Positions 22,332-56,436 of a DNA stretch of 64,000 bases are shown in pieces. The DNA is from Salinibacter sp. 10B (GTDB lineage Bacteria; Bacteroidota; Rhodothermia; Rhodothermales; Salinibacteraceae). Under the pieces are notes generated by a model, which was given only the letters and a program-made list of their open reading frames with translations, ran no database searches and was not told where the DNA came from. Location: positions 2,916,668-2,980,667 of the forward strand of contig NZ_MQWC01000004.1 of NCBI RefSeq assembly GCF_002954405.1. Reading direction: 5' to 3'. The stretch's first letter is position 1. Every line of letters begins with the position of its first letter. The translations under genes were made by a program, and so were the position numbers.

Positions 22332-22544
22332 TTAGCGCCGCTTCCGGTTGTCGCCGCGCTTGCGCTCGCGGTGGCGGCGGCGACGCGCCTTCTTCTTCTT
22401 GAGCCGTTTCTCCTCCGACGGCTTCATGTACGCCATGTTCTGCCGATACTCCTGCAGAATGCGGCTCCGGTTTACCTGGCGCCGGAAGCGTTTGAGTGCG
22501 CGATCAATGTCTTCGTTGTTTCGAACCTTAACACCAACAGCCAA
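22332..22544 (-). CDS. rpsU: 30S ribosomal protein bS21
   Basis: The 70 residues match bS21 (VKVRNNEDIDRALKRFRRQV, then a very basic tail). In Bacteroidota bS21, with bS18 and bS6, holds the anti-Shine-Dalgarno end of 16S rRNA on the ribosome. The start codon is TTG at 22544; no in-frame ATG precedes it. A perfect AAGGAGG stands 8 bases upstream. This strong site, in a genome segment where other genes lack one, fits the known autogenous control in which ribosomes lacking bS21 expose the anti-SD and translate rpsU. It is transcribed alone and ends in an intrinsic terminator. Confidence 0.96.
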   Translation of the reverse strand: MAVGVKVRNNEDIDRALKRFRRQVNRSRILQEYRQNMAYMKPSEEKRLKKKKARRRRHRERKRGDNRKRR

Positions 22545-22551
22545 CGTGGAT

Positions 22552-22559
22552 CCCTCCTT
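22552..22559 (-). promoter_or_regulatory. strong Shine-Dalgarno site of rpsU
   Basis: AAGGAGGG on the minus strand, with AGGAGG 8 bases ahead of the TTG start. It decides the start codon and is the likely target of bS21-dependent autoregulation. Confidence 0.85.
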
Positions 22560-22701
22560 GAGGAGTCTGGTTATGTAGGTTGTGTATGGACGCTATCTAT
22601 TCAGCGCGCCCGCTTCAACGGAAGGGAGGAAGGGCGTGTTTCTTTGAGGGCGGGGGGGTGCTCGTTTGTGTGCTCTTTTCGTACCAATCCGCTCGGTCTT
22701 C

Positions 22702-55827: not shown

Positions 55828-56436
55828 TCAGTCAATGTTCGGGTTCGTGTGGTGAAAAACCCCGGCCGGGTTGCCCCGATGGATCCAGGCGTGAAGCCCC
55901 GTGAAGTCCTCGGCACTCTCGTAGTGCCAGCCGTGTGCCTCCGACACCTTTAACGTGCGTGGGGACTGCTCGTCGTTGAAGAGGTTGGGCGGGGCGCAGG
56001 TCTGATCGCCGGGAACAATGTACTCAACGGCCCCGAGAATGAGGTCGTCATCGTGCATTGCGTCGTGTGGGTCTCCGGGCGCGGGGGTGTAGGATTCATT
56101 CGGAAAATAGACGAGCACCGGCGGGTCGTCTCGGTCCGTCCCGAAGGGCGGAACCCGGTCCGCAAAGTGAAAGCCCATTCCGGGGACGTACGGTGAAACG
56201 GGCACATAACCGTCCGCCCGGGCCGCCTCAATGTCTCGATATTTCTTGGTATTCTGTCGGACGGCATTCAACTGCTGGGCGAGAGACGCCTCAATTGCCG
56301 TCCCTTGCTTTTGTATCACTGATGATTCCTGGTCCAGGGGCTCTATCGTCTCCGAACGGGGGGCAACCCCATCGCACCCGATCGAGAATAATCCAATGAC
56401 AAGTGTAATGACAAGTGCTCCTGGGAATCGTCTCAT
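55828..56436 (-). CDS. His-rich putative lipoprotein, unknown function
   Basis: The 202-residue precursor has a lipoprotein signal ending in FSIGC. The mature half has a helix (SLAQQLNAVRQNTKKYRDIEAA) and then a compact domain with many His: GMGFHFADR, DPHDAMHDDD, EAHGWHYES, GLHAWIHRGNPAGVFHHTNP. The C-terminal HAWIHR-NP-GVF block looks conserved, as in uncharacterised secreted proteins of several phyla. The clustered His suggest metal binding, which is inference. No enzyme class can be assigned. Confidence 0.72.
   Translation of the reverse strand: MRRFPGALVITLVIGLFSIGCDGVAPRSETIEPLDQESSVIQKQGTAIEASLAQQLNAVRQNTKKYRDIEAARADGYVPVSPYVPGMGFHFADRVPPFGTDRDDPPVLVYFPNESYTPAPGDPHDAMHDDDLILGAVEYIVPGDQTCAPPNLFNDEQSPRTLKVSEAHGWHYESAEDFTGLHAWIHRGNPAGVFHHTNPNID

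Follow-up and report, generated by a model that had tools for sequence, protein, structure and literature searches.

The window analysed here, a stretch of 64,000 nucleotides from the genome of Salinibacter sp. 10B, carries the rpsU gene on its minus strand at positions 22332-22544. Its 70-amino-acid product was identified as ribosomal protein bS21 by a match to the Pfam family Ribosomal_S21 (PF01165; 66.1 bits, cut-off 27), and this gene is the sole S21 match in the 4.75 Mb genome. Upstream of rpsU lies a gene of the Ham1 family on the opposite strand, with a gene for a D-Tyr-tRNA deacylase next to it, and an aldo/keto reductase gene is located downstream. The encoded bS21 is 97% identical to that of a Salinivenus sp. 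MAG, the closest named relative found, and Salinivenus is placed at NCBI in the Rhodothermota, Rhodothermia, Rhodothermales, Salinibacteraceae.

The rpsU leader reads, in the order of the mRNA, CTCCTC-AAGGAGG-GATCC-ACG-TTG, and the TTG (22542-22544, minus strand) is the single ATG, GTG, or TTG codon in the rpsU frame near the conserved N-terminus. The Shine-Dalgarno (SD) motif AAGGAGG, which an earlier, sequence-only reading of the window had noticed 8 bases before this TTG, is present exactly as described, at 22559-22553 of the minus strand, and its AGGAGG complements nt 1535-1540 of the organism's own 16S rRNA. It is followed by GATCC (22548-22552, minus strand), the complement of 16S nt 1529-1533, and preceded by CTCCTC (22560-22565, minus strand), for which duplex prediction suggests possible extra pairing with the 3' extension AGAGAG of the 16S rRNA, a pairing that hinges on the position of the mature 16S end. 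No Rfam element with an E-value up to 1 was matched between 22100 and 22900, and no sigma-70 promoter was found near rpsU between 22150 and 22800.

The 3' end of the 16S rRNA, inspection of which had been proposed along with the original observation, reads GGATCACCTCCTAGAGAG in this organism; the anti-SD is present and intact. The uninterrupted helix that rpsU forms with it consists of AGGAGG, comprising 6 bp with an energy of -8.5 kcal/mol. When A1534 is skipped, the GATCC of the mRNA may pair with 16S nt 1529-1533, which would constitute a predicted extension of the SD helix, and CTC may pair towards the 16S 3' end. The interrupted pairing amounts to -14.7 kcal/mol against nt 1532-1544 and to -24.3 kcal/mol against nt 1529-1546. 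Relative to the published criterion of less than -13 kcal/mol for nt 1532-1544, the value is thus -14.7 for the interrupted and -8.5 for the uninterrupted pairing, calculated with a program that differs from the free_scan of that paper. Nucleotide 1529 of the 16S rRNA borders helix 45.

Among the 57 predicted genes of the window, GGAGG or AGGAG precedes the first start of two, rpsU and an ORF at 55828-56436 (minus strand), and the claim that the other starts in the window lack such a site is close to correct. This second ORF encodes a lipoprotein-like product of 202 amino acids and is preceded by TAAGGAGGATGCT-ATG, which contains AAGGAGG. The use of SD motifs in the genome was assessed in 376 predicted genes in 460 kb, composed of the window and 20 stretches across contig C4, two of which were picked for ribosomal protein (r-protein) operons; the genes were predicted with our own gene finder and their start positions are uncertain. 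In this sample, 26 genes had GGAGG or AGGAG ahead of a candidate start, versus 30 in the mock window. Sites of -11 kcal/mol or lower numbered 37 versus 22 in the mock when the best of all candidate starts was taken, and 10 versus 6 for first starts, and at -9 to -4 kcal/mol no excess over the mock was detected in the 376 genes. SD motifs therefore occur near chance level in this sample of the genome, with a small excess in the strong tail. This agrees with the start-site logos of Salinibacter ruber and Rhodothermus marinus, which are reported without an SD (PMC3155529).

When the 376 genes were compared by their first starts, rpsU displayed the lowest energy (-14.7 kcal/mol, RNAduplex against 16S nt 1532-1544), the runner-up having -13.6 kcal/mol and a start that was probably assigned wrongly. 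With all internal candidate starts allowed, rpsU ranked third against the same tail, and first against nt 1529-1546 (-24.3 kcal/mol, with the next at -19.2 kcal/mol). It also has the strongest site of the 26 r-protein genes tested (25 identified by Pfam, and rpsU itself), its -14.7 kcal/mol comparing with -7.8 for rpsF, -7.3 for rpsC, and -2.0 for rpsR. The rpsC gene (L144:6842-7558), with the third strongest r-protein site, starts with TTG as well.

The distribution of the rpsU leader was determined in 169 genomes, represented by one locus each and comprising 78 of the 95 Rhodothermales that had a match, 23 other members of the class, and 68 other members of the phylum; the loci were partly top-scoring matches and partly picked to cover families, and the sample is not random. 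In one genome (G218, locus L190), the expected place has no ATG, GTG, or TTG, and rpsU seems to begin with a CTG behind GGAGGCAGTTTC; this genome was excluded from the counts, by which 168 remained. A site was considered strong at -9 kcal/mol or lower against 16S nt 1530-1540. Strong sites were found in 18 of the 19 genomes of the family of the window (f1, families being numbered only; mock 0), which we take to be the Salinibacteraceae, and in 25 of the 58 remaining Rhodothermales (mock 1), amounting to 43 of 77 for the sampled order. Outside the order, such sites were found in 11 of the 23 further class members (mock 0) and in 43 of the 68 further members of the phylum (mock 1). No site of -9 kcal/mol or lower was detected in families f3, f40, f43, and f46 (0/2, 0/5, 0/3, and 0/3, respectively), yet these families keep a non-AUG rpsU start. 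The comparison of rpsU leaders that had been suggested on basis of the window alone thus turned out favourably for the window's own family, and for the weak start codon throughout the sampled order, but the SD itself is patchy across the Rhodothermales.

The start codon of rpsU is TTG or GTG, and never ATG, in all 77 sampled Rhodothermales whose start could be assigned. These genomes belong to 14 families and are phylogenetically nested, and therefore do not represent 77 independent events. TTG and GTG were counted 17 and 2 times, respectively, in f1, and 40 and 18 times in the other Rhodothermales; f1 and f40 each contain both codons, and f5 has GTG throughout. Starts were chosen by fixed preferred distances to the conserved motif. 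In 46 of the 77 genomes an in-frame stop precedes the rpsU start before any in-frame ATG is met, in 27 the reading frame is open without ATG for 80 nt upstream, and in the remaining 4 an in-frame ATG lies 11-20 codons upstream, which makes the start less certain there. Control genes of the same order, taken from 30 rpsR loci and the organism's own genome, revealed an ATG start for bL9 in 22 of 22 cases where the motif was found, and an available ATG at 29 of 30 starts found for bS18 and at 12 of 12 for bS6; 2 of the 22 bL9 leaders reach -9 kcal/mol. Moreover, 24 of 26 r-protein genes of the own genome start with ATG, the two with TTG being rpsC and rpsU. Because TTG or GTG is found in 77 of 77 genomes and a strong SD in 43 of 77, the weak start of rpsU is better conserved in the Rhodothermales than its SD. 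TTG or GTG starts were also found for rpsU in families f15 and f18 (2 and 4 genomes), presumably Chlorobia.

The residue equivalent to Tyr54 of Flavobacterium johnsoniae bS21 is Arg in the bS21 of the window. With the bS21 of locus L009, which has Tyr at this place, as the reference for the column, the 100 sampled Rhodothermia displayed 93 Arg, 5 Lys, and 2 Ala, and Tyr in none. Among the 168 genomes, a Tyr in this column went together with an ATG start in 23 of 23, 11 of which have a site of -9 kcal/mol or lower, and 116 of the 145 genomes without this Tyr have a non-ATG rpsU start. The main exception is family f11, which we assume to represent the Balneolaceae and which contributes 17 of the 29 genomes with ATG and no Tyr. 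In 11 of the 17 rpsU leaders of f11 (L062, L204-L208, L210-L213, and L219), the ATG is preceded by AAAGGA(T/A)GTGA, which complements the 16S rRNA over a long stretch, interrupted by one mismatch in the core of the SD. The sequence signature of rpsU does not need the pocket tyrosine. According to the main text of McNutt 2023 (PMC9976891), Chlorobia bS21 has lost Y54 as well, and autoregulation is still considered there, as 'similar but not identical'.

The region 3' of the SD in f1 pairs better with the 16S rRNA than shuffled versions do, the mean fraction of shuffles that are as good being 0.02 in 19 genomes. This fraction was below 0.1 in 17 of 33 families overall. As a trait of the entire class the 3' extension was rejected, the fraction being below 0.1 in 4 of the 15 Rhodothermia families tested (f1, f8, f41, and f42), and it is put forward as a candidate feature of the family of the window alone. 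In f1, GGAGGGATC is present in 12 of 19 leaders, and a single f4 genome and a single f8 genome have it too; GGAGGGATT is present in one f42 leader, and families f14, f20, and f32 together contribute four genomes with the full GGAGGTGAT. Family f5 has GAGTGAT in 10 of 16 leaders, which is a 16S complement with one interruption. A leader hairpin that would hide the SD was also considered, and candidates exist in the form of CTCC-NNNN-GGAG in part of f1 and CACTC-NAG-GAGTG in the majority of those f5 leaders that have a site. Such folds were rejected as a means of hiding the SD, its accessibility not being below that in shuffled leaders (mean percentile of 0.56 for 19 f1 and 0.53 for 11 f5 leaders).

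When the whole genome was searched for the extended motif, AGGAGG-N(0-1)-GATC with a start-like codon behind it, 16 places were found, versus 5 for a backwards control pattern. By our own coding scores, the 15 places other than rpsU include one convincing gene start and a doubtful one, and the former speaks against rpsU being the sole gene with the extended motif. It belongs to an HNH-nuclease gene (Pfam HNH_5, HNH; L294, G000:C4:3801643-3802155, with further loci L295-L323), which was matched in 55 of 60 Rhodothermales genomes, weakly and partially in G233. Leaders of this gene were read at 30 loci, from 30 of the 55 matching genomes, and two of these loci have no candidate start. Of the 28 usable loci, 19 reach an energy of -9 kcal/mol or lower, versus 5 in the mock, with many G-rich SDs, and the start is ATG in 27 and GTG in one. 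The gene was noticed through its motif, so that the organism's own genome must be discounted in this count, and the GATC part of the leader was seen in that genome alone. The HNH leader weakens the notion that rpsU stands alone, and points to SD genes being few but not limited to rpsU. It also hints that bS21-less ribosomes might translate several genes rather than one.

Autoregulation of bS21 has been demonstrated in F. johnsoniae (McNutt 2023, PMC9976891), and the main text of the same paper argues for it in four of the five Bacteroidia orders and in the Chlorobia. The extension beyond Flavobacteriia, which the sequence-only reading had proposed, is accordingly in print already. As far as F. 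johnsoniae is described there, the Salinibacter gene resembles it in that an anti-SD is present, SD use is not general, and rpsU is an outlier with extended 16S complementarity. In contrast to F. johnsoniae, it has Arg for Tyr54, a shorter uninterrupted core (6 bp versus 9-13 bp in the F. johnsoniae type; PMC9976891), GATCC past the A1534 that is skipped, and a weak start, UUG in this gene and UUG or GUG in its relatives of the order. The Chlorobia are described as having no Tyr54, a strong rpsU SD, and predicted autoregulation (PMC9976891, main text); the sampled Rhodothermia equally lack Tyr54, whereas the helices of the Rhodothermales are interrupted and often absent. Neither Rhodothermia nor Salinibacter is named in the main text of that paper, although the Rhodothermia may stand in its supplementary figures, and its main text does not contain UUG, GUG, or TTG. 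No report on a UUG start of rpsU or on bS21 of the Rhodothermota was found in the open-access literature, and no earlier description was found there of the fact that rpsU of the sampled Rhodothermales strictly avoids AUG as its start. A weak start codon as regulatory input in a translation gene has a counterpart in Escherichia coli infC, which encodes IF3 and is autoregulated through its AUU start, with the difference that the sensor in infC is IF3 rather than anti-SD access.

The most likely reading of these data is that rpsU is kept under translational feedback, to which we assign a probability of about 0.5. The underlying bS21 model reportedly goes back to Jha et al. 2021. Most mRNAs of the lineage would be read without SD pairing, and rpsU would combine a UUG or GUG, which initiates poorly, with an extended stretch that complements the 16S 3' end apart from a slight interruption. 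In 30S subunits without bS21 the 3' tail would be more accessible, pair with the rpsU leader, and allow initiation at the UUG. We infer that the tail would be sequestered in bS21-replete ribosomes, and subunits that contain bS21 would then pair less with the leader and rarely initiate. The weak start codon would tie initiation to pairing and thereby widen the response. Such feedback in this lineage had been proposed from the window alone, and it gains support from the intact anti-SD, the lack of clear general SD use, the outlier position of rpsU among the r-protein genes, the conservation of the leader in 18 of 19 f1 genomes, and that of the weak start across the sampled order. It is weakened by the Arg at Y54, the uninterrupted helix of 6 bp with -8.5 kcal/mol, the SD of the HNH gene, and the lack of strong sites in over half of the other Rhodothermales. 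More tentatively, feedback gated by the start codon may operate in the Rhodothermales and in several other lineages of the phylum that have an Arg54-type bS21, in which rpsU would be held to UUG or GUG and be initiated efficiently solely via a long imperfect 16S helix on subunits lacking bS21, without the Tyr54 pocket, and a small further set of SD genes, such as the HNH gene, would respond to the same ribosomes.

The absence of Tyr54 from the 100 sampled Rhodothermia would also fit residual SD use without feedback, in which the anti-SD is free, a few genes keep an SD to be translated efficiently, and that of rpsU would do no more than offset its weak UUG. This possible but rather doubtful explanation is favoured by the HNH gene, which has an SD of -9 kcal/mol or lower in 19 of 28 loci and nearly always an ATG start, by the AAGGAGG of the second window gene, by the small excess of strong sites over the mock in the genome sample, and by rpsC, which combines a TTG start with the third strongest r-protein site. 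However, it leaves the absence of ATG from 77 genomes unexplained, even though TTG and GTG interchange among them. Moreover, SD and weak start are separable, as f3, f40, f43, and f46 have a weak start and no site of -9 kcal/mol or lower, and the Tyr54 genomes use ATG in 23 of 23, 11 of them behind such a site. The universality of the non-AUG start in the sampled order, which the SD does not share, could instead indicate that the start codon is the conserved element, in which case rpsU output would track IF3 or initiation stringency through UUG or GUG, and the SD would be secondary. We consider this unlikely, as the SD is conserved in 18 of the 19 f1 genomes and the sequence 3' of it pairs better than shuffled versions in this family. 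If translational feedback on rpsU holds, specialized bacterial ribosomes, which are rare, would extend to a class that the main text of the key paper does not name, and the rpsU start, never AUG in the 77 genomes, provides a feature that is easily tested.

Finally, variation in the 16S tail was compared with that in the rpsU leaders. A strict 16S-end pattern was matched in 28 of 146 genomes of the class, and its misses may reflect an absent 16S, masked stretches, or the strictness of the pattern; a 16S family search was successful in 11 of 40 genomes of the order, and 2 of 45 genomes matched a short pattern. In the 14 genomes with known tails, the own tail gave the lowest energy in G000, G179, G215, G221, G159, and G184, it did not in G228, G241, G216, and G233, and the remaining four had at most a slight site or nearly equal energies. 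General covariation of SD and anti-SD was dropped as evidence, no consistent pattern being present across these 14 genomes. In one f3 genome the 16S rRNA ends with UUACCUCCUU, and its rpsU leader is without a site. Two genomes of the window's genus (G228 and G241; L268 and L269) have a 16S rRNA that ends with CACCUCCAGA, containing CACCTCCAGAAGAG with a U to A change after CCUCC, and their leaders do not pair best with their own altered tail. In two Rhodothermales genomes of family f45 (L266 and L267), the 16S rRNA ends with UUACCUCUCA, in which an altered anti-SD, GGATTACCTCTCACAGAG, replaces GGATCACCTCCT, and the rpsU leaders of these two genomes pair best with their own 16S tail, at a weak -7.1 kcal/mol.
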